DNA of 42,470 nt from a bacterium (GCA_030603495.1 JAUVXR010000022.1:1-42470); one strand, 5' to 3'; numbered from the stretch's first letter, positions 291-34,971 are shown. Numbers and translations: made by a program. The notes: generated from the sequence alone by a model not told the origin.

Positions 291-2441
291 ATGTCCAACT
301 TGCAACTGACTACTGCTGTATGGGGGATGCTGGGGCTGTTGGCATTTGCCACAATCTGCCAGGCCCAGTATCCGGAGTTACCCCCTGTGAAAGACTGGAC
401 AATCCTGAACCACACCGTTTGGTATAACGATGCCGGCACGATGCTCACTGATCACCTCAGACGGCTCGCTCGCGAAGCTGACGCACGCACGGAGGCGAGG
501 CGAAAAGCAGTTCGCACCACACAGGATCTGGCGGCGCGCAAGCACGAGATTGAGGAGTCCTTGCTGGATATTATCGGCGGCTTGCCGGAGAAGACGCCCC
601 TCAATGCCAGAGTCACCGGCCGTGTGGATCTGGAAGAATACGTTATTGAGAACGTCGTGTATGAGAGCCTGCCGGGTTTTGAGATCGCCGCCAATCTCTT
701 CATCCCTAAGGGGCGCTCCTTCCCGGCTCCGGCGGTGATCTGCCCATGTGGACACAGCCGGAAAGAGGACCCTGTTCACCACGGCATGGGTGCGGGCCTG
801 GCGAGCAACGGCTACGTGGCTCTGGTGGTAGACTCCCCTGATCGGGGCGAGCGCTGCGATCCTGGCAATGATCACTTCCGCGTCGGCGCCTTGACCTACC
901 TGACGGGGGCGAACTCAGAGCGCTACTTCATGTGGGATGTCGTCCGTGGGATTGATTACTTGCTGACGCGCGAGGAGGTCGACCCAGATCGTATTGCTTG
1001 TACCGGCGTGTCCGGAGGGGCAGTTTCCACCTTGCACGCAGCGGCTCTGGACAAGAGAATCAAGTGTGCCGTGCCGGTGTGCGGTGTGATTCCTCTACGC
1101 CAACTGATTGAAACCCTCTACACAAGCTGTCCAGAGCAGTTACACCAGAATACTCTCGGTAAGCAGATAGACGAAATGGAGATTGGCGCACTGATAGCAC
1201 CGCGACCGATGATGCTATTGCAAGGTCACCGGGATGATCTCTTCTTCGTGCCTGACTTCGTCCACGGTTGCCAGCAGATCGCCCACTACTACGAAGTCTC
1301 AGGCCATCGCGACCGTATCACTTGGGCCGTATTTGACTCTCCTCATGACTACAGTGGGGAGATGCGGGAAGCAATGTACGAATGGATGGGTAAGTGGATA
1401 GGCGATGACGAGACAACGGCAGTTGACCCGGGAGACAGGATGCACTTCCCCGAGCCACAGGAGTTGGCCTGCCATCCCGAGATCTCCTCAACATTCTTCT
1501 CCGTAAACGCCGACATTGCCCGCTCGCTGGCCCAGGCACGAGGCCAAGTTTCGCCCTCCGCCGAGCAAGTGCGCGAGCAAGCCAGGAGCCTACTAGCAGT
1601 TGATAGCCCGCCGCCCGCCGAGGTGGTGCCTACTGGGACCATGCTGGGAGAAGGTATTGCTGTGGAGAAGGTAGTTCTGCAGCCCAAACCTGACATTCAG
1701 GTTCCGCTGTGGGTGCTACGGCCGCAACCCGCGGAGGGTCCGCTCCCCGCTGTCCTCTACGCCGACGGCCACGGAAAAGCACGAGACGCAGAAGCTGGTG
1801 GCCATATCCGGCAGCTTGTGAAGGCGGGCTACCTGGTGGTTGCTCCCGACGTACGGGGCATTGGTGAAACGGCGATGTCCCCTACCCACTGGGACATACA
1901 CTCATGGTGCGATGTGGAGCGCGTCGCCGCCTGGACTAGTTTCGTGCTGAGCAAACCCGTCTTAGGGATGCGCGTGACCGATGTGCTCTGCGTGCTAGGA
2001 TATATGAGGAGCCGCCCCGACGTGAACTCGGACCGCATCGCTCTCTGGGGCAAAGGCCAGGGCGGCGTCTGGGCCTTGTATGCCGGCCTACTTGATGCAG
2101 ATGTCGCCGGGCTGATTGTGGAGAACGCTCCCACAAGTTATCTCGGGATGGCAACCGACATGGCGTACAGTTGGAACCAAACGCTGCTGCTGCCCAACGT
2201 CCTGCGCCACCATGACCTGCCCGAGGTTACCGCGGCCCTTGCCCCCCGATCAGTGCTATTTGTGAATCCAGCCGACTCGCGGGAGCAGCCGGTCTCAGAA
2301 GAGGCATTTGGGCAGGAATATGAAGCAGCTCGGCGTCTCTACGGAACTGCACCTGGCAGGCTGGTCGTGCATTGTGGTTTAGAGATCCAGGACATTATGT
2401 CTATTGCTGTGGGATGGCTCAATGACCTGCTGAGAGACTGA
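291..2441 (+). CDS. Secreted tandem alpha/beta hydrolase (acetyl xylan esterase/dienelactone hydrolase-like)
   Basis: This is a 716-residue protein. The ATG at 291 is preferred to an upstream in-frame ATG because an AAAGGGG ribosome site lies just before it and a signal peptide follows directly (cleavage near A25-Q26). Two alpha/beta-hydrolase units are visible. The first has a GVSGG nucleophile elbow (Ser about 241), an Asp in GHRDD (about 315) and a His in PHDYS (about 352), a full catalytic triad. The second (about 480-716) keeps the fold signature (PDVRGIGET; SDRIALWGKGQGG), but the nucleophile position is Gly (about 589), so it is probably inactive. The family includes deacetylases of plant polysaccharides and other esterases; the substrate is not evident. 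It is probably exported to the periplasm or beyond. Confidence 0.8.
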   Translation: MSNLQLTTAVWGMLGLLAFATICQAQYPELPPVKDWTILNHTVWYNDAGTMLTDHLRRLAREADARTEARRKAVRTTQDLAARKHEIEESLLDIIGGLPEKTPLNARVTGRVDLEEYVIENVVYESLPGFEIAANLFIPKGRSFPAPAVICPCGHSRKEDPVHHGMGAGLASNGYVALVVDSPDRGERCDPGNDHFRVGALTYLTGANSERYFMWDVVRGIDYLLTREEVDPDRIACTGVSGGAVSTLHAAALDKRIKCAVPVCGVIPLRQLIETLYTSCPEQLHQNTLGKQIDEMEIGALIAPRPMMLLQGHRDDLFFVPDFVHGCQQIAHYYEVSGHRDRITWAVFDSPHDYSGEMREAMYEWMGKWIGDDETTAVDPGDRMHFPEPQELACHPEISSTFFSVNADIARSLAQARGQVSPSAEQVREQARSLLAVDSPPPAEVVPTGTMLGEGIAVEKVVLQPKPDIQVPLWVLRPQPAEGPLPAVLYADGHGKARDAEAGGHIRQLVKAGYLVVAPDVRGIGETAMSPTHWDIHSWCDVERVAAWTSFVLSKPVLGMRVTDVLCVLGYMRSRPDVNSDRIALWGKGQGGVWALYAGLLDADVAGLIVENAPTSYLGMATDMAYSWNQTLLLPNVLRHHDLPEVTAALAPRSVLFVNPADSREQPVSEEAFGQEYEAARRLYGTAPGRLVVHCGLEIQDIMSIAVGWLNDLLRD

Positions 2442-22090: not shown

Positions 22091-24160
22091 CTATATCCTC
22101 TTGCGCAGGCGGAGCCAGCGGCGGCGGAGCCTGTCAATCTGAGAGTCAGTGGCCGGCGCTGCCGAGTACCTCAACTCGTACAGAGCAGCAGTGACGCGCC
22201 GGAGGGTGCCGCCCAGGTGGACCGGGACGAGCTTGGCGCTCAGGACCGAATCGAGAAGTTCATTGGGCGTATGCTCGGGACCAGGGCGCAGGCCGTGCTT
22301 GCGGAGGGCTTTGCGGTAGAAGCGGTGCCACTCGCTCTCCAGACGGTTCCAGGCAAGCCTCCGGGCCAGTCGGGCTTGCCACCAGGCGCCCAAGAGGTTC
22401 ACGTTCACGAACATGGCGCCCAACAGCGCGATAAGTGCCAGGATGCCGAGCGCCAGCGTGCCTGCCCGCGTGGCCCTGGCGACTACCAGCCGGAATTGTC
22501 CGCTCCGCCACAGGCGGGCAAGTGTCTCTTCTTCGAGCCGCGTCTGGGCCTGCGGGTCAAAGGGGACCCAGCCGTAGCCCGGGAAGTAGACTTCAACCCA
22601 GGCGTGGGCATCCTTGCCGCGCACGAGGTACGTGCCCCGCGCGAAGTCATATTGGCCGGTGGCAAAGCCGGTGGCGACTCGGGTAGGCACGCCGGCCAGC
22701 CGGCACATCATAGCCATGGCGGTGGCAAAGAGGCCGCAGTCGCCCCGCTTGCTGGTCAACAGGAAGTAGATCGCTGAGTCCATATTGCGCGGCGTTCGCG
22801 GCGGTGATTCGGTGTACAGGTAGTTCTGCTCCAGGAATTCCATTATCTGGGTAACCTTGTCATAAGGCGTCTCGGCGCTGGCGGTGACTTCCTCGACCAA
22901 GCCACCCAACCGGGTCTCCACAGCAACCGGCACCCACCAATACCACGTGCGCCGGGTCCATTCGGGGCGCAGATATTGTGTACCGGCGGCGCGGAGTTGC
23001 TGCGGTGAAGGATCGGGTACCTTGGAGACCACGCGGTAGGAGCTGCCGACGGGCATAGCAGGTGCTACTTGGACCACCCCGGACGGCTGGCTGGTCAGTT
23101 CGGCCATCCATTGGGTGCCGCGCGCGTCTGTGATCGGGCCGACTTCGGCTGGCTGGGCCGCGGCAAATACTACCGCTGAGGAGATCTTCTCCAAATGGAA
23201 GACTTGCTCGAAGTCGGCGTCAATCAGCGAACGCAGCTCCGGCATCTGGTAGCGACCGCCGTCGGCGGCCCTCAACTCAATAGTCGCCTGGTCCTTGGCA
23301 AACCAGGACTGGCCCTCGTAGGTGTCGTAGACGCGGCCCCGCCATAAGGCGGGCGTATCCGACTCGACCGTCATAACTATCTGCTGGGTCAGGTGAGCCC
23401 GGCCGCCTCCGACCCAGAAACCACGGTCAGGCTCAGCGTAGTCGGCCGTGTTGACCTGGGGCCACCGCCAGGGAATCCGCTTGGCGTTCTCGTAGAGATC
23501 GGGTGACACCTGGTACATTATGTGGCTGGCGCCTGCTGCGATCACCGCTACTGCCAGGAACAGTACTGCCGTCGGTATCAGTTGATTCCCGCTCCACCGC
23601 AGCCACGTTGTCTGCCGGCGGCCTACTTCACGAATTCGCTCTGTTCTGAGCAGGTTATCGTAGGCAAGGGTGTAGATAGCCGCGAACAGATACACGAGAA
23701 ACGAGACAATAGTCACGGCGTTTAGGTTGACTGTGCCCATAAGGCCGAGGACAGCCAGACCGGAGACCAGGCAGAGGATAGTATGTTCCCGGCGGCTCTG
23801 GATGAAGCAGAAGCCCACCATGACCCAGGCGATTAGCGCGGCCAGGGCGATATCAGGCTGTGCGATTACTTGGAACGGGTAGAGCAGGCTGGCTGGGAAG
23901 ACGTCTACTCGCCGGGCGACGATGAAGGCGGTGAAGGCGCCGACAATGAGAATCGTGCCGAGAAAATTCAAGTTGGCGCTGCCGCGTGCCGTCAGAAAGC
24001 TGCAGACCAAGCCGGCGGCGATGGTCAGACAGACGGCTAGCTCGTAGAACGGCGCGTCCACTGTCGCGCCAATGACACTGACAGCCGCCACGCAGGCTAC
24101 CAGCAGCCCCCCAAACAGGGGCAACATGTCAAAGGCGTTCTGCCGACTAGCCGGCGACAC
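22091..24160 (-). CDS. TgpA-like membrane transglutaminase (DUF3488)
   Basis: This is a 689-residue protein starting with GTG at 24160, overlapping the DUF58 gene by 14 bases. Residues 1-215 hold six or more TM helices (DUF3488). A periplasmic region follows with a transglutaminase core: Cys475 in SKRGDCGLFATAMAMMCRLA, His519 in RGKDAHAWVEVYFPGYGW and Asp535 in VPFDP, a complete triad. A TM helix near 566-588 and a DUF4129-type cytosolic tail end the protein. The MoxR-DUF58-TgpA order is a widely conserved cluster of unclear function, probably protein cross-linking or processing at the envelope. Confidence 0.85.
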   Translation of the reverse strand: MSPASRQNAFDMLPLFGGLLVACVAAVSVIGATVDAPFYELAVCLTIAAGLVCSFLTARGSANLNFLGTILIVGAFTAFIVARRVDVFPASLLYPFQVIAQPDIALAALIAWVMVGFCFIQSRREHTILCLVSGLAVLGLMGTVNLNAVTIVSFLVYLFAAIYTLAYDNLLRTERIREVGRRQTTWLRWSGNQLIPTAVLFLAVAVIAAGASHIMYQVSPDLYENAKRIPWRWPQVNTADYAEPDRGFWVGGGRAHLTQQIVMTVESDTPALWRGRVYDTYEGQSWFAKDQATIELRAADGGRYQMPELRSLIDADFEQVFHLEKISSAVVFAAAQPAEVGPITDARGTQWMAELTSQPSGVVQVAPAMPVGSSYRVVSKVPDPSPQQLRAAGTQYLRPEWTRRTWYWWVPVAVETRLGGLVEEVTASAETPYDKVTQIMEFLEQNYLYTESPPRTPRNMDSAIYFLLTSKRGDCGLFATAMAMMCRLAGVPTRVATGFATGQYDFARGTYLVRGKDAHAWVEVYFPGYGWVPFDPQAQTRLEEETLARLWRSGQFRLVVARATRAGTLALGILALIALLGAMFVNVNLLGAWWQARLARRLAWNRLESEWHRFYRKALRKHGLRPGPEHTPNELLDSVLSAKLVPVHLGGTLRRVTAALYELRYSAAPATDSQIDRLRRRWLRLRKRI

Positions 24161-25388
24161 GTTGCCACCCCCTGAAGTTGGCGATCAGGCTCAGATCGCC
24201 CCGGATGGGGTAGACGCGGCAGCGGTGGGCGCGAAGCTGCTCGATGAAGTGGTGGTACGAGACTTGCGCACCATCCGCGGCCGCGGATGGCACTCCAAAG
24301 CTGGGGACGAACAGTGGGAACCAGATTAGCGAATTACCCCATGCCTGGAGGGTGGCGGCGACGGTGAGCATCTCTGGCCCGGTCTGCGGACTAATAATGG
24401 CCACTGCTCCTGCGCGGCTTAGTTGCTTGCGCCGGTGATCGAGCACCTGCAACAGCCGATCGGCGCTGTCGGCCCGGACCCGGGCCAGAGCTTCGAGGAT
24501 AGCGGTCTGCGATTGGTCCGGTCGGGTAAAGGGTACGCTCCAGTCGCGGCTGCCCCAGGCAATGAGTTGAGCTGCGCCTCCCTGGCGTAGTGCCAAGGCC
24601 AGCAGGCTGGCTGCCAGAGTGACGCTGTACTCGAGGGTGCTATGGCTGCCCACACCAATGTGAACATTGCGCGAGAGATCGAGAATGACGGTGGCGCCGA
24701 GGCTATGCTGTTCTTCGCGCTCGGTTACCACCAGTTTGTTAGTGTGGGCGCTCGCCTTCCAGTGAATGTGTCGCAGGTCGTCGCCGGGCACGTACTCCCG
24801 CACCCCATAGATATCCGGCCCCTGGGGGTTCTTACGGCGGGTTAGCGTGCGGGTAGCTACGCCGGCCGGTGTCGGCATCCACACGTTGGGCAGCGCCAGC
24901 GGCTTGGGATAAACAATCAGCTCCTGGGCCTGGGGCAAGCGGCGGTAGAATTCGTACATCCCCAACAGATCAGGCGAGGCCAGCTTCAAGTCCCCCAGTT
25001 GGTAGACGCCCCGCTGCTCGGGGACGACTTCATAGTGGAAGCTGCGGCGCTCGTAAGGCGCCAGGTCAGCGACCACCTGGTAGGGATCGTCACTGGCTTG
25101 CAGGCTGGGGGGGAGCACGTCTTCGACGGTGAACAAGAAGCGGCGGCGACCCGCCCGGTTGTGTACCGTCAAACTAGCTTTGACTGGCTCACCAGCGACT
25201 GCACGGCTCGCCAGGGACCGGGTCACGTCCAGCTTCTGCAGGTTAATGCGGGTGAGCAGGTAAGAGAGTGGCGCAAGCAGGCCCCAGGCTGCGGCCATGT
25301 AGAAAAGCTGGTAGACGTGCAGCACAAAGCCGACGGTGAGCAGGAACGCGCTGCCAAAGATTAGTGTATACCACTTGTGCGCTTTCAT
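24147..25388 (-). CDS. DUF58 (vWA-like) membrane protein
   Basis: This is a 413-residue protein. Two N-terminal TM helices (TLIFGSAFLLTVGFVLHVYQ and MAAAWGLLAPLSYLL) precede a beta-rich region and the DUF58 hallmark PDIYGVREYVPGDDLRHIHW, then KASAHTNKLVVTEREE and the vWA-like ATVILDLS. DUF58 proteins act with MoxR ATPases and transglutaminases. The gene lies 10 bases after moxR and overlaps the transglutaminase gene. Confidence 0.85.
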   Translation of the reverse strand: MKAHKWYTLIFGSAFLLTVGFVLHVYQLFYMAAAWGLLAPLSYLLTRINLQKLDVTRSLASRAVAGEPVKASLTVHNRAGRRRFLFTVEDVLPPSLQASDDPYQVVADLAPYERRSFHYEVVPEQRGVYQLGDLKLASPDLLGMYEFYRRLPQAQELIVYPKPLALPNVWMPTPAGVATRTLTRRKNPQGPDIYGVREYVPGDDLRHIHWKASAHTNKLVVTEREEQHSLGATVILDLSRNVHIGVGSHSTLEYSVTLAASLLALALRQGGAAQLIAWGSRDWSVPFTRPDQSQTAILEALARVRADSADRLLQVLDHRRKQLSRAGAVAIISPQTGPEMLTVAATLQAWGNSLIWFPLFVPSFGVPSAAADGAQVSYHHFIEQLRAHRCRVYPIRGDLSLIANFRGWQRVAG

Positions 25389-25398
25389 TGTTGCTTTC

Positions 25399-26346
25399 TC
25401 ACTGGCCGAGGGGCACTGGGACCCGGGCTAAGACCTGCTCGACCACCTCCCGGCTGGTCGTTCCCTGGAAAGCCACATCCGCCGACAGAATTATGCGGTG
25501 CCCCAGGGCCGGGTAAGCGACGTGCTTGATGTCGTCGGGAATAACATAATCGCGCTGGCATACCGCGGCCAGGGCCTGGCTGAGACGCATCAGGGCAATA
25601 CTGCCCCGCGGACTAGCTCCCAGTTCGACGGTGGCATCCTCGCGAGTGGCCCGGCTCAGGTTCACCATGTATTCTTTGAGGCTGTCGTCCAGGTGGATGC
25701 GGCGGACTTGCTGCTGCAATTCCACCAGTTCCGCGGGCGTCAGGACCGGCTCGACCAGTTCAATGGGGTGCTGCACCATCTGCTTGCTGAGCATGGCGAC
25801 TTCATCGGTGGGGCTGGGGTAGCCCAGGCTGATGCGCCCCAGGAAGCGGTCCAACTGGGCCTCGGGCAGCCGGTAAGTCCCCTCGTACTCAATCGGGTTC
25901 TCGGTGGCAATGACGAAGAAGGGATTGGGCAGCGGGTGGGTCACACCGTCCGCGGTGACCTGGAACTCCTCCATACACTCTAGTAGCGAGGCCTGCGACT
26001 TGGGTGTAGCCCGATTAATCTCGTCGACTAGAACGATATTCGCGAATACCGGACCGGGCCGGAACTCAAACTCGCCACTGCTCTGGTTGTAGACCGATAT
26101 CCCGGTCACGTCCGCTGGCAGCAGGTCGGGCGTGAACTGGATGCGCTTGAAGGTGCAGTCCAGTGACTTGGCCAGGGCGCGAGCCAGCATCGTCTTGCCC
26201 ACGCCGGGGATGTCCTCGATCAAGATATGTCCGCCGGCGAGCAGCGCCGCCACGGCTAATCGGACCACATCGGTCTTGCCGATAATCACGGTTTCGACGT
26301 TGTCAATCAGCGCCTGGATGGACTCGCCGCTCCGCATCTCGCTCAT
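25399..26346 (-). CDS. MoxR-family AAA+ ATPase
   Basis: The ATG at 26346 (GGGGA ribosome site) is chosen over a start at 26412 that would overlap the dehydrogenase gene. The 315-residue protein has Walker A EDIPGVGKTMLARAL (Lys51), Walker B NIVLVDEINRA (Asp108-Glu109), sensor 1 FFVIATENPIEYEGTYRLPE and the arginine-finger region QLDRFLGRISLGYP. MoxR ATPases are chaperone-like partners of vWA proteins. Upstream of DUF58 and TgpA it completes the classic trio. Confidence 0.9.
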   Translation of the reverse strand: MSEMRSGESIQALIDNVETVIIGKTDVVRLAVAALLAGGHILIEDIPGVGKTMLARALAKSLDCTFKRIQFTPDLLPADVTGISVYNQSSGEFEFRPGPVFANIVLVDEINRATPKSQASLLECMEEFQVTADGVTHPLPNPFFVIATENPIEYEGTYRLPEAQLDRFLGRISLGYPSPTDEVAMLSKQMVQHPIELVEPVLTPAELVELQQQVRRIHLDDSLKEYMVNLSRATREDATVELGASPRGSIALMRLSQALAAVCQRDYVIPDDIKHVAYPALGHRIILSADVAFQGTTSREVVEQVLARVPVPLGQ

Positions 26347-26369
26347 TACTGTCCCCGCTCTGCTTTCAG

Positions 26370-27542
26370 TTAATAGGCCTGCTCGTAGATCCCAATGATG
26401 TCTCGCATACACACCGTTCTGGGATTGCGGCTGATATGCGGGCTTTCTATGGCATCTGCGGCCATTCGGCCAATAGCCGACTTATCCACTCCCACGTGGC
26501 TCATTCGCCGGGGAGCTCCGACGTCCTGTGCCAGTTCGCGGACGGCTGCTACAGCCTGTCTACTGGCCGACTCAATACTCTGTTCATCATCTAAGACGCC
26601 CATAGCGGCACCAATGTTCGCGAATTCGGGCATTGCCGCAGGCCGGTTGAATTCCATCCCGAACGGTAGCAAGATAGCATTAGCCACGCCGTGTGGGACA
26701 TCAAACAGCGCGGACAGCGGTAGCGCCATAGCGTGGACGATACCCAGGCGGCTAACCGAGAAAGCCAGGCCTGCCATCATTGCCGCCCGCTGCATCCCTG
26801 CCTGGGCCTCGAGGTCTCCCGTGTTTCTTACCGCTGCCCGGAAATGTCGGGCAATGAGTTTGATGGCCTCGTGGACGCGCTTGCGGCTTGGCCCGGTCGC
26901 TTCCTTGCTGATGTAGGACTCGACGGCATGGGTCAGGGCGTCCATGCCGGCAGCTACCTGAGCTCCCCGGGGAGTCGAAGTCAGCAAAGTCGGGTCGAGC
27001 AGCGCGTATTTGGGGTAGAAGGATTCGTGGTTAAGTACCAGCTTGTGGTGAGTCTCGGTGAAGGTAATGACGGAAAACGGCGTGACCTCCGAGCCGGTGC
27101 CGGCGGTGGTGGGAACGGCGATGAAGGGCAGGACAGTGTCCGGCACTGTCGTTGGCTGCCCGGCGCACTCCTGGCTGAATATCCAGCCTTCCTGACCAGC
27201 CTCCGCGGCGATGGCCTTGCCTGCGTCCATACTCGAGCCCCCGCCGATGGCGACAATGATGTCAGCGCCCCGGCTGTGGGCATACTCACCGCCGGCGGCT
27301 ACGGTACGATCAGACGGCTCCGGTTCGACTTGATCGAAAACCTCGACTGTAGTCGTGGCCGGCGCCACCTCGCCCAGGCTAGCCACTTGAGGTAGCCGTG
27401 AGACGTTCTTTCCGCAGACCACCAGAACTCTGTGGCAGCCCAGTTTGTCGGTATACGTGAAGATCTGGGCCAGAGCGCCAGGGCCGGATATGACCTCTAC
27501 AGGATTGCCGGGCACTTTTTCGGTGCGGAGGTCAAGAGCCAT
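26370..27542 (-). CDS. Iron-containing alcohol dehydrogenase
   Basis: This is a 390-residue group III alcohol dehydrogenase: nucleotide-binding AIGGGSSMDAGKAIA (about 98-112), PTTAGTGSEVT, and the metal ligands Asp201 and His205 (GMDALTHAVES), His270 and His284 (HAMALPLSALFDVPHG). The full set predicts an active NAD(P)-linked, Fe(II)-dependent enzyme for a primary alcohol or aldehyde. The substrate is unknown. It is divergent from the protease/ubiquitin-like block, sharing a 199-base intergenic region with it. Confidence 0.9.
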   Translation of the reverse strand: MALDLRTEKVPGNPVEVISGPGALAQIFTYTDKLGCHRVLVVCGKNVSRLPQVASLGEVAPATTTVEVFDQVEPEPSDRTVAAGGEYAHSRGADIIVAIGGGSSMDAGKAIAAEAGQEGWIFSQECAGQPTTVPDTVLPFIAVPTTAGTGSEVTPFSVITFTETHHKLVLNHESFYPKYALLDPTLLTSTPRGAQVAAGMDALTHAVESYISKEATGPSRKRVHEAIKLIARHFRAAVRNTGDLEAQAGMQRAAMMAGLAFSVSRLGIVHAMALPLSALFDVPHGVANAILLPFGMEFNRPAAMPEFANIGAAMGVLDDEQSIESASRQAVAAVRELAQDVGAPRRMSHVGVDKSAIGRMAADAIESPHISRNPRTVCMRDIIGIYEQAY

Positions 27543-27741: not shown

Positions 27742-28644
27742 ATGAGGCACGAGTATCTGTGGGTTGCCGTAGTCGGCGTTGTTGGGGTGACTGCGGCGGT
27801 TTGCGCAGCAGACATGACCGCTGCTATCGAGCGGGTCGGGGAGAGCGTCTTCACGGTCAAGACCGGCGACCGGGTGGGGGCGGGCTTCATCGTCAGCGCC
27901 GATGGGCGCGCTCTGAGCAGCGCTCACGTGGTCGGGGAGGCCACAGAGGTCACGGTGACTCTGGCTAATGGGGTAGAGTTGAGCGCCACGGTGGTAGGCT
28001 GTGACGAAGTCCGGGACTTGGCTCTGCTCGATTTAGGCGTAGAGAATCTGCCCGTGGTCCAGTTTGCCTCGGCCTCGGGGCTGAAGCAGGGAACGAAGGT
28101 GGCCGCGCTGGGTGCGCCGCTTGGTCTGGGGGGATCGGTAACTGAAGGCATCGTCAGCGCGGTCGGTCGGCAGATTGATGACAAGGAGTACATCCAGATT
28201 GATGCAGCGCTGAACGAGGGCAACTCCGGAGGGCCCATCATTGACGAAAAAGGCCGTGTGGTCGGCGTGGCCACCGGGGTGGTCAAGGAGGCGGAGAATG
28301 TGGGCTTTGCCGTGCCCAGCGACGAAGCTATCGCTCTCCTGCAGAGTGTGGGGATGAAGCTGAGTCTGCCGCTGGACGAAGGGGCAACCCCTGTCTCGGT
28401 GGGTTCCGCCCCCGAACCAGCGAGGCCCACAGCACCGGTTTGGCCTCCTGCACCGAGAGCGAAGGCGCCTGGCTTGCTGTTGCTCATCGGCATTCCGCTG
28501 GTAGTCTCGCTGGTGGTCTCGTTGGTGGTTTCGCTGCTGGTCACCCGTGCTGTGGGGCGCGGGCCCAGTGCGCCCGAGGTTAGCCTCTTCCCACCCAGCG
28601 ACCAACAAGAAGACCTGTCCGATGTTGATATCACGCTGGAATAG
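27742..28644 (+). CDS. Membrane-anchored trypsin-like (HtrA/Do-type) serine protease
   Basis: This is a 300-residue protein. The ATG at 27742 is chosen for its AAGGGGG ribosome site and the signal peptide that follows (LWVAVVGVVGVTAAVCAA). The protease domain is complete: His62 in SSAHVVG, Asp92 in RDLALL, Ser162 in NEGNSGGPI. It has no PDZ domain, unlike DegP. A Pro-rich linker leads to a TM helix (about 244-268) and a 32-residue tail ending DLSDVDITLE. By topology the protease faces the periplasm and the tail the cytoplasm. The final VDITL resembles the motif shared by the ubiquitin-like cassette that starts 100 bases downstream, so it is probably part of that system (inference). Confidence 0.85.
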   Translation: MRHEYLWVAVVGVVGVTAAVCAADMTAAIERVGESVFTVKTGDRVGAGFIVSADGRALSSAHVVGEATEVTVTLANGVELSATVVGCDEVRDLALLDLGVENLPVVQFASASGLKQGTKVAALGAPLGLGGSVTEGIVSAVGRQIDDKEYIQIDAALNEGNSGGPIIDEKGRVVGVATGVVKEAENVGFAVPSDEAIALLQSVGMKLSLPLDEGATPVSVGSAPEPARPTAPVWPPAPRAKAPGLLLLIGIPLVVSLVVSLVVSLLVTRAVGRGPSAPEVSLFPPSDQQEDLSDVDITLE

Positions 28645-28743
28645 ACGGTGGTTAGTGGGCGGTGACGGCGGCTGTCCTACCAGAAGGGATACGTCTTGAC
28701 TGAAGCTCTAGTAACGGCTTCTTGACCTAAGGAGGTTAACTCG

Positions 28744-29013
28744 ATGGGTAAAGTAAGTGTGACGATACTTGACGCCACTGGCTCCAAGGAACAGAAGGCC
28801 AGCCTGCCGGATGACGCGCCGGTGCGCCGGATCATCGGCAAGCTCATCGAAATGATGAAGCTGCCGTCCACCGGCCCCGACGGCCAGCCGATGAGCTACA
28901 AGTTCCACCACAAGGCCTCGGGCAAGCAGCTCACCGACGACCAGACGCTGTCCGACGCCGGCGTCAAGGACGGTGATGTTCTGCGCCTCCAGCCGGAGAT
29001 CACCGCGGGCTGA
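28744..29013 (+). CDS. Ubiquitin-like beta-grasp protein (conjugation tag candidate)
   Basis: This 89-residue protein has a very strong Shine-Dalgarno AAGGAGG (28729-28735). It matches a ubiquitin/YukD-like beta-grasp: strand pair KVSVTILDATG / KQKASL-type, helix VRRIIGKLIEMMKL, YKFHHKASGKQLTDDQTLSD (counterpart of ubiquitin's IFAGKQLEDGRTLSD) and the last strand DGDVLRLQ. It ends ITAG: the terminal residue is Gly, with no extension after it and Ala instead of Gly before it. It would not need C-terminal processing before activation by the E1 encoded 23 bases downstream. Expected role: covalent modifier of target proteins. Confidence 0.85.
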   Translation: MGKVSVTILDATGSKEQKASLPDDAPVRRIIGKLIEMMKLPSTGPDGQPMSYKFHHKASGKQLTDDQTLSDAGVKDGDVLRLQPEITAG

Positions 29014-29036
29014 CGCGCGCCTGCGGAAATGAAGAT

Positions 29037-30233
29037 GTGGAGCAGATGACCGAAGACCAGGTTCTGGACATTGATCTTGAGGAGGACCGTTATCACCGGC
29101 TGCGGCTGATCCCCTGGTGGGACCAGGAGCGGCTGTTTGACGCCCGGGTAATGGTGGCCGGCGCCGGGGCGCTGGGTAACGAGATTCTCAAGCAGCTCGC
29201 CCTGCTCGGCGTGGGTAACATTTTTGTGGTGGATATGGATATCATCGAGGAGTCCAATCTCACCCGAGCGGTGCTCTTTCGCAAAGAAGACGAGGGCCAG
29301 CCCAAGGCGGAGGTGGCCGCGCGGGCACTGATGGCGCTCAATCCGGAGATTAGGGTCCAGAGCTTTGTGGGTAACATCGTATATGACGTAGGTGCCGGCG
29401 TCTTTGCGGATATGGATATCGTCATCGGCGCGCTGGATAACCGCGAGGCGCGGGTGGCGATAAATCAGGCGTGCTGGCAGTTGGGCAAGCCCTTTGTTGA
29501 CGGCGCCATTGAGATAATCCAGGGCGTGGCCCGGATCTTCTGCGGGCCGGACGGGCCCTGCTACGAGTGTACAATGAACGCCAAGGATTACGAGCTGCTC
29601 AGCCAGCGGCGCTCGTGCGCGCTGCTGTCGCGGGATGACCTGATTCTGGGCAAGGTGCCCACGACGCCGACAACTGCAGCGATTATCGCGGGCATCCAGA
29701 CCCAGGAGGCGGTGAAGTGGCTGCACCGCGACCGGGAAATGCCACTGCTTCTTGGTAGGGGCCTGGTGTATGACGGATTCAGCAATGAAACGTATATTGT
29801 GGAGTACCAGAGGCGCGCGGACTGCCCGGCGCATATCACGCTGCCGCCGGTGCAGGAGTTGGACAAGTCGGCGGATACCGCCACCGTCGGCGAGATGCTG
29901 GAACTGGTAAGGTCTGAAGTCTCGCCCGAGGCGGTGCTGGAGTTCGAGCGCGAAATCTGTATTGGCCTTCATTGCCCACACTGCCATGAGAGCGAGCCGG
30001 TCTTCCGCTCGCTGGGCAAGCTCACCGAGAGCGAGGGCCGTTGTCCGCACTGCCACGAGCTGCGCGAGCCGGAGCTGACTCACGCGATATATGGTGACGA
30101 GGATTACCTGGACCGGACCCTGGCGGAGATGGGCCTGCCGCTGTACGATATTGTCACTGGTCGAGATGGGTTGGAGCGGGCAGCCTTCTTGCTGGCTGCC
30201 GACCGCGAAACTGCCTTGGGCTGCCTGGCCTGA
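29037..30233 (+). CDS. E1-like (ThiF/MoeB-fold) ubiquitin-activating enzyme
   Basis: This is a 398-residue protein starting at GTG 29037 (ATG 29046 is an alternative). The adenylation domain has GAGALGNE (42-49), VVDMD (Asp66), ESNLTRAVLFR with Arg77 and Arg82, Lys90, and ALDNREAR (Asp134). CYEC (175, 178) is a zinc half-site. Cys194 in RRSCALLSRD sits where E1-type catalytic Cys residues lie, followed by TTPTTAAIIAGIQTQEAVK, as in E1 enzymes that pair with E2s. The C-terminal part adds two CPHC knuckles (313-316, 336-339), a zinc ribbon. The N-terminus carries VLDIDLEED (9-17), the motif shared across the cassette. It should activate the ubiquitin-like protein with ATP and pass it to the E2. 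Confidence 0.9.
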   Translation: MEQMTEDQVLDIDLEEDRYHRLRLIPWWDQERLFDARVMVAGAGALGNEILKQLALLGVGNIFVVDMDIIEESNLTRAVLFRKEDEGQPKAEVAARALMALNPEIRVQSFVGNIVYDVGAGVFADMDIVIGALDNREARVAINQACWQLGKPFVDGAIEIIQGVARIFCGPDGPCYECTMNAKDYELLSQRRSCALLSRDDLILGKVPTTPTTAAIIAGIQTQEAVKWLHRDREMPLLLGRGLVYDGFSNETYIVEYQRRADCPAHITLPPVQELDKSADTATVGEMLELVRSEVSPEAVLEFEREICIGLHCPHCHESEPVFRSLGKLTESEGRCPHCHELREPELTHAIYGDEDYLDRTLAEMGLPLYDIVTGRDGLERAAFLLAADRETALGCLA

Positions 30234-30263
30234 GGGCCGAGATCAGCCCGAAGAAGGTGTGCT

Positions 30264-31316
30264 ATGAGTGATCATGGGTTCGCGAACGTCAGTGGTAGCA
30301 GGCACGATCTGGATATCTCGCTGCAGCCGCCCAGGCCTGTGCCTGAGGAGCGACCGAAGGACACGGTGGTAATGGTCGCCCAGTCAGTGGTAGAGGAGGT
30401 GCGCCGCCACGGTGACAAGGACACCGCCCGGGAGCAGGGGGGCGTGCTGGTCGGCACCGTCGCATCCAGCCGCGATAAGGTCTACGTTACCGTGGAGGCA
30501 GCTATACCTGCGCCCCATGCTCGGGCCGATCGGAGCAGCGTGACCTTCACCCAGGAGAGCTGGGGGGAGATAAATCGCGTTAAGGATAGACAGTATCCCG
30601 ACCAGGACATCGTGGGCTGGTATCACACTCACCCGGGCTTTGGCGTCTTTCTTTCCGACTACGATACTTTCATTCATCGCAACTTCTTCCAAGCGCCGTG
30701 GCAGGTGGCGTTCGTGGTGGACCCGGTCTCCGAGCAGTCTGGCTTCTTCACCTGGAAGGACGGCGAGATCGTGCCCAGCGGCCAGTACAACGTCTTCAGC
30801 CCGCAGAAGGTGGAACGGCCCCAGCCACCAGCCCAGCCGGAGGCGCCGGTTTGGACTGAACCGGTGGTAGCGCCGCCGTCGGTGAATATCGTTACGATCG
30901 CGGCGCTGATGGTCTTGGCCCTGCAAATAGTCATTCTAGCGATGCTACTGCGCGGAGGGCCTAGTGGGCTACCCGTGGCTGGCGGTGGCGAAGCGGTAGC
31001 CACGCGGCTGGAGGCGGTCCAGGGCGAGTTGGCGACTAGTGCCGCGACGCTACACGAGCTAGCCGGGAAGCTCAGTCAAGTCAAGGCCTTGCCGTTGACC
31101 GCGGGGGCCACAGCAGCAGGAATAACCTACGAGTGGTACGAGGTCGAGGCCGGTGACAGCTTGTGGCGGATCGCCGAGCGGCACTATGACAAAGGGGAGC
31201 TTTATACACTGATTGCGGCGGAGAATGGCATTCCGCTGCCCGCCGGTACAATAGTACCCGGGCAAAAGTTGCGCCTGCCCGAACTGCCGGAGGAACCTGA
31301 TGTCGCCACTGAGTGA
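30264..31316 (+). CDS. JAMM/JAB isopeptidase with TM helix and LysM domain
   Basis: This is a 350-residue protein. Residues about 34-180 form a JAB/MPN domain with all zinc/catalytic residues: Glu57 (REQGGVLVG), His121 and His123, Ser131, Asp134 (GWYHTHPGFGVFLSDYD). A Pro-rich linker, a TM helix (about 209-229), a coiled spacer and a C-terminal LysM domain (about 290-338: YEVEAGDSLWRIAERHYDKG ... VPGQKLRLP) follow. LysM binds peptidoglycan or similar glycans, so the JAB domain should be cytoplasmic and LysM periplasmic. The N-terminus has DLDISL (15-20). JAMM enzymes remove ubiquitin-like tags. The 3' end overlaps the next gene by 17 bases. Confidence 0.9.
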   Translation: MSDHGFANVSGSRHDLDISLQPPRPVPEERPKDTVVMVAQSVVEEVRRHGDKDTAREQGGVLVGTVASSRDKVYVTVEAAIPAPHARADRSSVTFTQESWGEINRVKDRQYPDQDIVGWYHTHPGFGVFLSDYDTFIHRNFFQAPWQVAFVVDPVSEQSGFFTWKDGEIVPSGQYNVFSPQKVERPQPPAQPEAPVWTEPVVAPPSVNIVTIAALMVLALQIVILAMLLRGGPSGLPVAGGGEAVATRLEAVQGELATSAATLHELAGKLSQVKALPLTAGATAAGITYEWYEVEAGDSLWRIAERHYDKGELYTLIAAENGIPLPAGTIVPGQKLRLPELPEEPDVATE

Positions 31317-32043
31317 GTGTGGGGAGGAGCTTGACGTTGAGATTCAGCAAGCGGCTCCAATGGCGCTGGCCGAAGGGCTCGACCCGGCGGATGATGAAAG
31401 CCTCAGGCTGATTGCCCTGGGGCAGCCGGCTGAGGATCGACGGGTATTCGTGAGCTATCCCTGTCTCAAACAGATGCTGGCCCACACCCAACGCAATTTG
31501 GAGGAAGAGATCGCGGGGCTCCTACTGGGTCAGGTTTTCCGCGGCAGCTGCGGCCTGGTCACCGTCCTGGCGGAGGCCGTGCCCGCCGTCTACACCGACT
31601 CGGGACAGGGGCACGTCACCTTGTCCCACGAGACCTGGTCAGATATCTACCAGTATCTGGAGTCGCTGGCCGCAGACGCCGTGATCGTGGGCTGGTATCA
31701 CACTCACCCGGGCTTTGGGGTGTTTTTCTCCGCTCAGGATGACTTCATTCAGAAGAATTTCTTCGGAGCACCGGGACAGGTGGGGGCGGTGGTTGATCCG
31801 GTGGCGAAGAGCATCCTACTGTTTGCCTGCGACAATAACGAGGTGAAGCCGCTGGCGGGTATATGGCTAACTGCGGGCGAGGAAAGCTACGCTGCTGCCC
31901 AGCGGGTCGCGGCCGGGCTGTGTTACGACAGCCGGCGGCTGGCGGCTAGGGACTGGCTGAGAAGCTGGGGCAAAAAGCTGCGCGAAAGCCTGTCCGGGGA
32001 GCAGCCCGCAGAGGAGTCACTACCCAGCGAGAAGGAAGCTTAA
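31300..32043 (+). CDS. JAMM/JAB isopeptidase, second copy
   Basis: This is a 247-residue protein whose ATG lies inside the previous gene. It has a JAB domain (about 47-200) with Glu70 (EEEIAGLLLG), His134, His136, Ser144 and Asp147 (GWYHTHPGFGVFFSAQD), so active-site complete. No TM segment; the C-terminus is charged (LRSWGKKLRESLSGEQPAEE). The N-terminal tail has EELDVEIQQ (9-17), the shared motif. A 35-base stretch encoding the active site is identical to the first JAMM gene (30609-30643 and 31684-31718). A cytosolic deconjugase is the likely role. Confidence 0.9.
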   Translation: MSPLSECGEELDVEIQQAAPMALAEGLDPADDESLRLIALGQPAEDRRVFVSYPCLKQMLAHTQRNLEEEIAGLLLGQVFRGSCGLVTVLAEAVPAVYTDSGQGHVTLSHETWSDIYQYLESLAADAVIVGWYHTHPGFGVFFSAQDDFIQKNFFGAPGQVGAVVDPVAKSILLFACDNNEVKPLAGIWLTAGEESYAAAQRVAAGLCYDSRRLAARDWLRSWGKKLRESLSGEQPAEESLPSEKEA

Positions 32044-32049
32044 CGCCCT

Positions 32050-32583
32050 ATGAACGCCCGACTGCGGCGACTGTATGCCGACTACCAACAGATTCGTAAC
32101 GAGTTCACGGGCCACCCGTATATTGATGTCGAGCCGATTCGGGGGAACCCGCCCGAGGCATATCGCGTGGTCTATCACATGAAGGGCCTGGAGCTGGACG
32201 AGAGCAGCAACCGCCCGCGGGTGCGTAGCGAACATGCGGCGACAATCTACCTGCACCGGGATTATCCTCGCCACAAGCCTAAGTGTGCGATGGAGACGCC
32301 GATATTCCATCCCAACTTCGGCTCACACATCTGTATTGACGACTACTGGGCAGCCGGCGAGCTGCTCACCGATATTATCATCCAGATCGGCCAGATGATT
32401 CAATACCAGAGCCACAATTCCAAGAGCCCGCTGAATGCGGTGGCAGCACGCTGGGCGGCGCAAAATGAGCACCTATTTCCCATTGGGAACGCCGATCTGT
32501 ACCAGCCGGACCTAGATATAGACCTGGTAGCAGGCCCAGGCGCCGGGCTGCAGGAGACGGACATCGAGATAGAACTGCTCTAG
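32050..32583 (+). CDS. E2-like ubiquitin-conjugating enzyme
   Basis: This is a 177-residue UBC-fold protein: N-terminal helix MNARLRRLYADYQQIRNEFT, strands, then TPIFHPNFGSHICIDDYWAA. This has the HPN motif (87-89), catalytic Cys95 and the conserved Trp100, followed by LLTDIIIQIGQMIQYQSHNS and SPLNAVAARWAAQN (the E2 'spLN..Aa..w' helix). This is close to eukaryotic E2s in motif spacing. The C-terminal 27 residues form a tail with two copies of the cassette motif, DLDIDL (154-159) and DIEIELL (171-177). It should accept the ubiquitin-like protein from the E1 on Cys95 and act with the RING-like protein encoded next. Confidence 0.92.
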   Translation: MNARLRRLYADYQQIRNEFTGHPYIDVEPIRGNPPEAYRVVYHMKGLELDESSNRPRVRSEHAATIYLHRDYPRHKPKCAMETPIFHPNFGSHICIDDYWAAGELLTDIIIQIGQMIQYQSHNSKSPLNAVAARWAAQNEHLFPIGNADLYQPDLDIDLVAGPGAGLQETDIEIELL

Positions 32584-32650
32584 GCTGGTGCCGGTGTGCC
32601 CGGCAGTGGGTGGTGTTTGGCATCAACATGCATGGAAGCGACCTCCGCAA

Positions 32651-33385
32651 ATGCGCTGTCCCCTCTGTCGCGAAAATATCATAGTCCAGGGGCGCTTTTG
32701 CCCGAAGTGCGGCGACCAAATATTTGGCCGGCCTCTCCCGGGCCGGAGCGCGCCGCCGGATGGCCCCCGCCTGGAATTGGAGCTGCCCCCGCCCTCGGTG
32801 GGTAAACCGCGAGGAGAGGTTCTGGAAATAGAGCTTGAACCCTCGGTCCAACCGACTGGGGCAGGAGCCGGCGCGGTGGGCAAGCTGTGCCCGTATTGTC
32901 GCTTCCCCATCAAGGCGGGTGACGAGGTGGTCACTTGCCCAGACTGCCAGACGACGCTGCATGCCGATTGCTGGCGGGCCAACGAGGGATGTACTACTTA
33001 TGGCTGTCGCAGTTCGCCCCAGGTTGCGGTGGCCCGGCGGGCGAGCAGAGTCTATGGGCAGGCGGACGCTTCTGCCGGCTCGTACGGGTCGGCAAGGTGG
33101 GGCCAGGCGGTGCCGTTGGGTGCTCGGCAGCTCATCGAGGCGGAGTTCGACGGCCAGTGTACCAACGCGCTGCTCTTCACTATCCTGCAACTTTTTTTCT
33201 GTGCCGGCTTCCTCTCCATCATTACACTTGTCTGGGGTGTGTCGCTGCTGTCTCAAATGAAGCGACTCGACGTCACGCCGAGGCCAGCGCGCGGCCGGGC
33301 CATTGCGGCAGTGGTCATCAGTGGCGGCGTGATGTTGCTATGGCTGACCATTTTGGTACTGAAGCTGGGTGGCTCCAGCGGTTGA
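32651..33385 (+). CDS. Zinc-ribbon/RING-like E3 candidate with two TM helices
   Basis: This is a 244-residue protein; ATG 32651 is chosen, with GTG 32588 as the alternative giving 21 more residues. N-terminal zinc ribbon: CPLC (3-6) and CPKC (17-20). The linker has two shared motifs, LELELP (41-46) and VLEIELEP (57-64). A treble-clef/RING-like domain follows: Cys80, Cys83, Cys96, Cys99, His104, Cys107, Cys114, Cys119 (CPYC ... CPDC ... H-x2-C). It resembles the prokaryotic RING families reported next to bacterial ubiquitin-like systems. Two TM helices (172-198, 217-238) anchor it. It probably serves as an E3, bringing the E2 to membrane targets. Confidence 0.8.
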   Translation: MRCPLCRENIIVQGRFCPKCGDQIFGRPLPGRSAPPDGPRLELELPPPSVGKPRGEVLEIELEPSVQPTGAGAGAVGKLCPYCRFPIKAGDEVVTCPDCQTTLHADCWRANEGCTTYGCRSSPQVAVARRASRVYGQADASAGSYGSARWGQAVPLGARQLIEAEFDGQCTNALLFTILQLFFCAGFLSIITLVWGVSLLSQMKRLDVTPRPARGRAIAAVVISGGVMLLWLTILVLKLGGSSG

Positions 33386-33460
33386 CTTGTGGCCCGGCGA
33401 ATTACGCAGAAGCTAAGCCCAGACCTGTATTAACCCGCTTTGCGGGTCCTGTTACCGGCA

Positions 33461-34093
33461 ATGAGCAGCGAAGAGCCCGAAATCGAAATCAGCCCGGCTC
33501 AGTCGCCCGAGCGCCCGGTCCGGTCTCGGCCAGCGGCCCCGCTGGTGGTGGTCGGCGAGGTTGGGTCGGTGGGGGAGGGGCGCGCGATCTTCCTGCACGT
33601 CCGGGCCGTCGCGGCGATAATGGATTCGCTGCCGGGGCAAGAACGCATGGAGGTGGGTGGCCTGCTGGTAGGCGCTGAGTGTCAGGACCAAGTAGGCTCG
33701 TATCTGTTGATAGCTGGGGCAGTCGGTGCGGGCAGCGCCCGCAGCGCTGCCTTGTCGGTCACCTTCACACATGAGGCATGGGACCAACTGCTGGCGGAGA
33801 AGGCGGCGCGCTACCCAGGGGAGGCCGTGGTCGGCTGGTATCATACTCATCCGGGGCTGGGCGTGTTTCTCTCCCCACAGGACCTGTTCATCCACCACCA
33901 TTTCTTTGCCGAGGCCGTGCACGTGGCGCTGGTGGTTGACCCCGCTGACTTTACCTGGGGGATATTCTATTGGCAGGGACCGGACCTGGTTGCGGCGCAG
34001 GGCTGTTACGTATATGGCGAGCCGCAGGAAGGTTATGACCATCTGGCTGGGCTGTTGAGGAACTACCAGGCTGGTGGCACTCAAGACAACTAG
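33461..34093 (+). CDS. JAMM/JAB isopeptidase, third copy
   Basis: This is a 210-residue protein from ATG 33461. The JAB domain (about 40-190) is active-site complete: Glu64 (MEVGGLLVG), His128, His130, Ser138, Asp141 (GWYHTHPGLGVFLSPQD). It is more diverged from the other two copies in DNA sequence. The N-terminal tail holds EPEIEISPAQ (5-14), the shared motif in short form, followed by a Pro/Arg-rich linker. No TM segment. It closes the conjugation block; a 12-base palindrome GCGGATATCCGC (34101-34112) follows. Confidence 0.88.
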   Translation: MSSEEPEIEISPAQSPERPVRSRPAAPLVVVGEVGSVGEGRAIFLHVRAVAAIMDSLPGQERMEVGGLLVGAECQDQVGSYLLIAGAVGAGSARSAALSVTFTHEAWDQLLAEKAARYPGEAVVGWYHTHPGLGVFLSPQDLFIHHHFFAEAVHVALVVDPADFTWGIFYWQGPDLVAAQGCYVYGEPQEGYDHLAGLLRNYQAGGTQDN

Positions 34094-34236: not shown

Positions 34237-34971
34237 ATGAAAGCTGCGATCAAGTTGGTGGTTATCGTATGTGCAGCACTTCTGGCCAGTGGACTCGGAG
34301 CCCAGGAGGCTGAACTGCCGGCGTCTGGGGAACAGCCCACCGCCCCGGCGCAGCCCGCTGCCGTGCCACAGCCCGCCGCCGTCACAGAGCCGTCGGCTGA
34401 AGACGGAGTTGCGGTCGAGACCGTTACCTCCTATCTGGACAAGATGAACTACGTCTACAAGGTGGACAAGTCGGCCAAGGTGCCGGAGATTGAGCTGCTG
34501 ATGCGGGGGAACAACGGTAACTACGACGTGCGCGTATTCATTGACAACCCCCGCAAGATCGTCTATGTCTGGGTGAATCGGCTTATGACTATTCCCGATC
34601 TCCACCCCCGCAAGTACGTGCTGCTCCAGAAGCTAATGGAACTGAACTGGGAGCTGTTGATCGGCAAGTACGAGTGGGATAAGAGTGACGGTGAGGTGCG
34701 CGTGTCGTACACCTTCAGTACGGAGAATGGAGTAGGCTACGATGCCTTCGTGGCTTGCTTCCAACTCTTGGTCTTGACCGCGGATCGGGACTACCCCAAG
34801 CTCATGCAGCTAATGTGGGGTAGTGTGGAGCAACCCTCAGCTCCGGCCGCAACCCTGGTGCCGCCCGAGAACAAGCCCGAAGAGGCTGCCATCAGCAAGG
34901 AAACTGAACCTAAGCCGGACACCAAGGCCAAGGAAAGCGAACCCAAGCCGGAGGCTCCCGAAAACCCGTAG
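34237..34971 (+). CDS. Exported YbjN-domain protein
   Basis: This is a 244-residue protein with ribosome site GAGGAG further upstream and AAAGGG nearer the ATG. It has a signal peptide (IKLVVIVCAALLASGLGAQ), a Pro/Ala-rich linker, then a YbjN/type III secretion chaperone-like fold (about 63-195): VTSYLDKMNYVYKV, EIELLMRGNNGNYDVRVFID, HPRKYVLLQKLMELNWELLI. The C-terminus is a Lys/Glu/Pro-rich repeat. YbjN proteins are implicated in regulation, but an exported form is unusual. It lies 143 bases after the third JAMM gene; whether it belongs to the conjugation system is open. Confidence 0.7.
   Translation: MKAAIKLVVIVCAALLASGLGAQEAELPASGEQPTAPAQPAAVPQPAAVTEPSAEDGVAVETVTSYLDKMNYVYKVDKSAKVPEIELLMRGNNGNYDVRVFIDNPRKIVYVWVNRLMTIPDLHPRKYVLLQKLMELNWELLIGKYEWDKSDGEVRVSYTFSTENGVGYDAFVACFQLLVLTADRDYPKLMQLMWGSVEQPSAPAATLVPPENKPEEAAISKETEPKPDTKAKESEPKPEAPENP

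Follow-up and report, generated by a model that had tools for sequence, protein, structure and literature searches.

Burroughs, Iyer and Aravind reportedly predicted in 2011 that prokaryotes possess operons combining a RING protein and a YukD-like ubiquitin-like protein (Ubl) with E1, E2 and JAB genes. Here we analysed an operon of this kind at positions 27742-34093 of a window, i.e., the whole stretch of DNA under study (42,470 nucleotides, GCA_030603495.1 JAUVXR010000022.1:1-42470), from a bacterial genome of 2.67 Mb that is 93.5% complete. The nearest named relatives are metagenome-assembled genomes of Candidatus Zipacnadia, a class of Armatimonadota, with E1 identities of up to 90%. On the plus strand, the operon encodes a trypsin-like protease, a YukD-type Ubl, a ThiF-type E1, two peptidases of the JAB family (JAB1 and JAB2), a UQ_con E2, a Prok-RING_1 protein and a third peptidase (JAB3). 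The 2011 operons reportedly contained the same set (Prok-RING_1, YukD-type Ubl, E2 with HPN and Cys, separate E1, JABs), and a YukD-like Ubl with C-terminal Gly, a UBC-fold E2 with Cys and HPN, a RING protein and JABs were all found in one operon here; the cassette is thus of a kind reportedly known. Passages of a 2006 survey by the same authors group YukD with ESAT-6 export genes and not with E1/E2 (PMC1779556). The clade-wide core status of the system, a short motif shared by the tails of its proteins and unlinked carriers of this motif are not known to be part of the 2011 description, and are new here. No prior description of these three features was found in the literature searched, beyond whose reach key recent papers lay, and the paper describing Zipacnadia does not mention ubiquitin (PMC10290634).

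The ubiquitin operon of Caldiarchaeum subterraneum likewise contains separate Ubl, E1, E2, RING and JAMM genes. Its E1 has a distinct catalytic Cys domain of ~60 amino acids (PMC11354881). Such a domain is missing from the operon studied here, which instead has three JABs, LysM/transmembrane (TM) anchoring and a trypsin-like protease. The UFM1 system (UBA5, UFC1) is similar in its E1 of ~400 amino acids without a separate Cys domain and in the short I-x-L docking sequence of this E1. UFM1 also ends in a single terminal Gly. However, the E2 is a canonical HPN/UQ_con enzyme here and not UFC1-like, a RING E3 is found instead of UFL1, and the motif occurs in all enzyme classes. Bil, Bub and type II CBASS (cyclic oligonucleotide-based antiphage signaling system) are bacterial E1/E2/JAB conjugation modules as well, whereas here the genes are single-copy core genes with an HPN E2, a RING protein and no mobile-element context. 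BilB, the E2 of Bil, carries a CEHH motif (PMC11354881); the corresponding Cys...Glu...His...His spacing was looked for in the E2 and was not present. While Cap2 of type II CBASS is an E1-E2 fusion, E1 and E2 are separate genes here, and no CD-NTase was found among the operon genes scanned.

A preliminary description, made from the sequence alone, had claimed a tag, an E1, an E2, a RING-like protein, three JAMM isopeptidases and a protease at the head of the operon. All of them were found on the plus strand, and every named Pfam family of the operon proteins scored above its curated cut-off. The operon was therefore confirmed as real, far beyond what chance would produce. For two genes, comparison with relatives suggests corrected starts: the RING protein would begin at ATG 32651 instead of 32588, and JAB3 at ATG 33461 instead of 33440.

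Components and catalytic residues

The Ubl (28744-29013, 89 amino acids, C-terminus PEITAG) matched Pfam YukD at 1.9e-16. Its AlphaFold2 model, built on an alignment of eight sequences only, was a beta-grasp with a mean predicted local distance difference test score (pLDDT) of 90.5. Against the PDB, the top match was Caldiarchaeum ubiquitin (6fno), and ubiquitin, NEDD8, SUMO and bacterial Ubls were among the top 50. The fold named in advance for the proposed tag was thus recovered, as was its terminal Gly, and EITAG was invariant across all close homologues. As residues follow TAG in about a dozen of 26 homologues, precursor trimming by a JAMM peptidase is suggested.

The E1-like adenylating enzyme (29037-30233; ThiF, 5.6e-56) lacks a separate Cys domain and ends in a zinc ribbon. 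Among its homologues GAGALGN was kept with small changes in a few, CYEC was mostly kept, and the candidate thioester Cys194 (29616-29618), located directly ahead of the crossover loop, occupied an invariant column in the homologues aligned. When the second half of the protein was compared to the PDB, UBA5 was the nearest, though weak, match (E-value 0.14).

For the E2 (32050-32583, 177 amino acids; UQ_con, 2e-8) the AlphaFold model had a pLDDT of 70, dropping below 50 at residues 121-130 and in the tail (residues 152-177). The best PDB matches were E2s of the Ubc13/UbcH5 type, and Rad6-type E2s matched too, in agreement with the UBC fold set beforehand. HPN and the catalytic Cys95 (32332-32334), followed by IDDYW, were invariant in the folding alignment, and the earlier assignment of Cys95 proved right. 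In a wider alignment both were kept, except in two distant sequences of family f18 that read HPH or NPH. Loci of f4, f45 and f21 contain an additional, diverged E2 upstream of the protease, likewise with HPN and Cys (L083 5025-5525, L084 12788-13288, L088 3375-3965, L089 6169-6672, L092 6814-7335), giving two E2s per system.

All three peptidases belong to the JAB/Prok-JAB families, and the JAMM residues E, HxH, S and D, already reported as intact, were present in each of them and in their relatives. JAB1 (30264-31316; Pfam JAB) carries a TM segment at about 30864-30920 and a LysM domain at 31137-31280 (1e-8), while JAB2 (31300-32043; Pfam JAB, 1.8e-12) and JAB3 (33461-34093; Pfam JAB, 1e-8) are predicted to be soluble. 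The protease (27742-28644; Trypsin_2, 9.5e-31; triad largely conserved) has an N-terminal signal/TM segment at about 27754-27810 and a C-terminal TM at about 28474-28530. The Prok-RING_1 protein (32651-33385; 4.9e-11) consists of a zinc ribbon, a linker, a RING domain with conserved zinc ligands (32876-33013) and two C-terminal TMs. Judged by hydropathy and charge only, the protease would face outside with a tail in the cytosol, JAB1 would hold its JAMM domain inside and its LysM domain outside, and the RING domain would lie inside. In relatives, several tandem RING genes were seen, and L091 (G252:C30 2193-2939) contains a 319-amino-acid frame with four Prok-RING_1 domains.

Distribution and gene order

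The E2 query matched 47 of 291 Armatimonadota genomes. Within the order to which the window belongs, an E2 was found in 27 of the 29 genomes of families f1-f4 but in none of the 12 genomes of the sister families f5-f6; the two f1-f4 genomes without a match are 67% and 81% complete. In this order the system is therefore core and not sporadic, contrary to the status first given to such clusters. The order protease-Ubl-E1-JAB1-JAB2-E2-RING-JAB3 was kept in the f1 loci wherever contigs reached far enough. The triple JAMM content, head protease and membrane anchoring had been taken as unusual; however, several JABs, the protease and the anchors recur throughout the clade. In an E1 tree, f1, f3 and f4 formed one group with 96/96 support, to which f45/f21, Planctomycetota and Patulibacter did not belong, a topology compatible with long vertical inheritance of the system within the clade.

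Planctomycetota and Patulibacter have related operons in which the catalytic residues are the same. In two Planctomycetota loci (L019 12913-15185, L022 13559-15732) the protease is a Prok-RING_1-TM-trypsin fusion beside an E2 whose C-terminus is extended by a long cysteine-rich stretch. This ties the protease to the pathway across phyla. Within the Armatimonadota, family f18 has a distinct, second E1-Ubl-E2-JAB cluster, whose Ubl ends in THG or AHG (L100 8248-10926, L101 7886-10846).

A motif shared by the protein tails

Reading the operon proteins side by side revealed a short motif in which hydrophobic and acidic residues alternate, written as [LIVM][DE][ILV][DEST][LIVF]. It occurs at the C-terminus of the protease (tail ending in LSDVDITLE), near the N-terminus of E1 (LDIDL, 29064-29078), in the N-tails of JAB1 (LDISL, 30309-30323) and JAB2 (LDVEI, 31330-31344), twice in the disordered C-tail of E2 (LDIDL, 32512-32526; IEIEL, 32563-32577) and twice in the linker of the RING protein (LELEL, 32771-32785; LEIEL, 32822-32836). 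JAB3 has a near-match in its N-tail (EIEIS), which reads EIEL, LEVEL or LELEL in relatives. Every component class except the Ubl thus carries the motif. The preliminary description, correct in the content of the cassette, had missed this most novel feature.

About 2,040 amino acids of operon protein contained the motif 8 times, compared to a background of 0.49 per 1000 amino acids in 274 proteins from a ~300 kb sample of the same genome. Within 25 residues of an end it was found in 5 of the 7 non-Ubl operon proteins, but in only 8 of the 274 background proteins (binomial, 4e-7, post hoc). We then shuffled each tail while preserving its composition (2,000 shuffles per group). The motif was present in 52 of 84 tails from f1 (2.7 expected), 23 of 45 from f2-f4 (0.9 expected) and 12 of 39 from f45/f21 (0.5 expected), and none of the 2,000 shuffles reached the observed value in any group. 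The motif forms a short hydrophobic strand with acidic residues, as do SUMO-interacting motifs (SIMs) and the UFM1-interacting motif (UFIM); disorder was predicted for the E2 tail only. Position 33 of the Ubl is Lys or Arg in all motif-bearing lineages and Leu or Val in Planctomycetota, while Patulibacter has Arg yet lacks the motif.

Scanning the genome with a DNA pattern for the motif gave 56 matches versus 23 for the reversed control. Most of them fell outside likely genes or well away from the ends of proteins; the tail carriers of note were L104, L112 and L169. L112 is a single-pass membrane protein with homologues in f1-f6, i.e., both where the Ubl system is present and where it is absent. 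In its tail ahead of the TM the motif was found in 13 of 14 homologues from f1 and 8 of 12 from f2-f4 (L204 counted with a corrected start), together about 21 of 26 in system-bearing genomes. In f5-f6, which lack the system, none of the 8 usable tails contained it, though these tails are likewise acidic (Fisher P of 7e-5 to 4e-4 with slightly different counts). Such a pattern would be expected of a motif that docks onto a component of the system. L104, a TerY_C-like zinc protein (975-1592, minus strand; Pfam 0.004, below the cut-off) unlinked to the operon, carries the motif in its N-tail (GELEIELHG), which is kept in near relatives. Its homologues occur in genomes of f1, f2 and f4, with a single one in f6. 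Of the members read, those from f1 (genus g1) and f2 have the motif, and one f1 member of genus g4 lacks it.

The operon is flanked by genes for an iron alcohol dehydrogenase, argH and pyrimidine (pyr) biosynthesis. Directly after JAB3 lies an additional conserved gene for a YbjN-like protein with an N-terminal hydrophobic segment (34237-34971, plus strand; YbjN, 1.7e-6), which also adjoins JAB3 in the near relatives L016, L017, L024 and L025. Elsewhere in the window (22091-26412, minus strand) a single run of MoxR AAA ATPase, DUF58 and transglutaminase/DUF4129 genes was observed, a cluster common in bacteria.

Proposed pathway and alternatives

The chemistry of E1, E2, RING and JAMM proteins is well established and comprises adenylation, thioesters on E1 and E2, RING-assisted transfer and JAMM release. 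A functional tagging and deconjugation pathway, as first proposed, is the best reading of the operon, supported by catalytic residues kept across the clade and across phyla and by the predicted folds of Ubl and E2. We infer an active, envelope-facing pathway in which the Ubl ending in ITAG would be adenylated by E1, carried on Cys194 and then accepted by E2 on Cys95. The membrane RING protein would steer transfer to nearby, largely membrane-associated targets. The JAMM peptidases would trim extended Ubl precursors where these exist and take the tag off, one of them (JAB1) being tethered to the cell wall side via its TM and LysM domains, while the extracytoplasmic protease would touch the cytosol solely by its tail. 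The tail motif might act as a low-affinity Ubl dock like the SIM of SUMO or the UFIM of UBA5, collecting writers, erasers and unlinked membrane clients. A short sequence of UBA5 binds UFM1, with Ile343 and Leu345 (I-x-L pattern) inserting into hydrophobic clefts (PMC5428781), and SIMs are used by SUMO E3 ligases and effectors (PMC12687455). We regard a reversible, membrane-associated Ubl conjugation pathway with the LDIDL-type motif as docking peptide as probable, if by no means certain.

Several points weigh against this interpretation. The motif was discovered post hoc and is variable, being found in only 3 of 13 JAB1 and 2 of 11 JAB3 tails in f1. It was not found in any of the 19 tails searched from Planctomycetota and Patulibacter and therefore is not essential to the cascade. 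Families f5 and f6 may be one lineage, in which case the co-occurrence test for L112 is not phylogenetically independent, and two f2 members of the L112 family were without the motif. L169, a second single-pass membrane protein, is lineage-restricted and has the motif in 5 of 12 cases, which is weak. The Ubl ends in a single Gly preceded by Ala and not in Gly-Gly, and YukD of B. subtilis is reported as not conjugated (PMC1779556).

The cascade might be right while the motif binds another hub, e.g., the RING protein, a JAB or a scaffold. Any shared hub would explain the motif in all component classes but the Ubl, and the motif is missing from the Planctomycetota, whose Ubl nonetheless retains about 60% identity. 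However, E1, E2, E3 and peptidases all have to make contact with the Ubl, and the eukaryotic SIM and UFIM precedents bind the Ubl; we consider another hub rather unlikely. A further, still tentative possibility is a bacterial Ubl system with its own SIM-like code. The motif, carried by E1, E2, the RING protein, peptidases, the transmembrane protease and membrane proteins unlinked to the operon, would then identify the writers, erasers and readers of the network, and clients could be predicted from it.

Tagging for destruction by an energy-dependent protease has precedents in ubiquitin and Pup, and HslUV is present in the genome while a protease gene heads the operon. Nevertheless, no match to a 20S proteasome was found in this 93.5% complete genome. 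As the sole PF00227 match is HslV, encoded beside HslU, degradation by a 20S proteasome is unlikely and proteasomal tagging was rejected; moreover, the operon's own protease is predicted to be extracytoplasmic. Degradation as the purpose of the tag thus has little probability. An antiphage defense system resembling Bil or type II CBASS is about as doubtful, or slightly more so. These are bacterial E1/E2/JAB systems too, and the E1-E2 and JAB models of PADLOC partially matched the E1 and the JABs, but Ubl, E2 and RING protein remained unmatched, the system is core in the clade instead of patchy, and it sits among alcohol dehydrogenase and argH/pyr genes. A mobile or defense origin was rejected, as searching plasmid, phage and viral-contig collections with the Ubl yielded zero homologues. 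That the Ubl remains unconjugated and has a structural or regulatory part, as YukD does in type VII secretion, is very improbable despite its YukD family. A role in type VII secretion was rejected, since no WXG100 protein was found in the 93.5% complete genome, and the Ubl has an invariant terminal ITAG among close homologues and is encoded with an E1, a Cys/HPN E2, a RING protein and three intact JAMM peptidases.

While the best-studied bacterial Ubl systems are mostly patchy, defense-type islands, the conjugation system described here is stable, chromosomal and clade-wide, with separate E1, E2, RING and JAMM proteins. It could serve as a model for a Ubl system operating where no 20S proteasome is available. 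Binding of the motif to the Ubl, if it occurs, would extend non-covalent reader motifs to the Ubl networks of bacteria, and candidate clients could then be listed directly from the motif; here, these are membrane proteins of the cell envelope.

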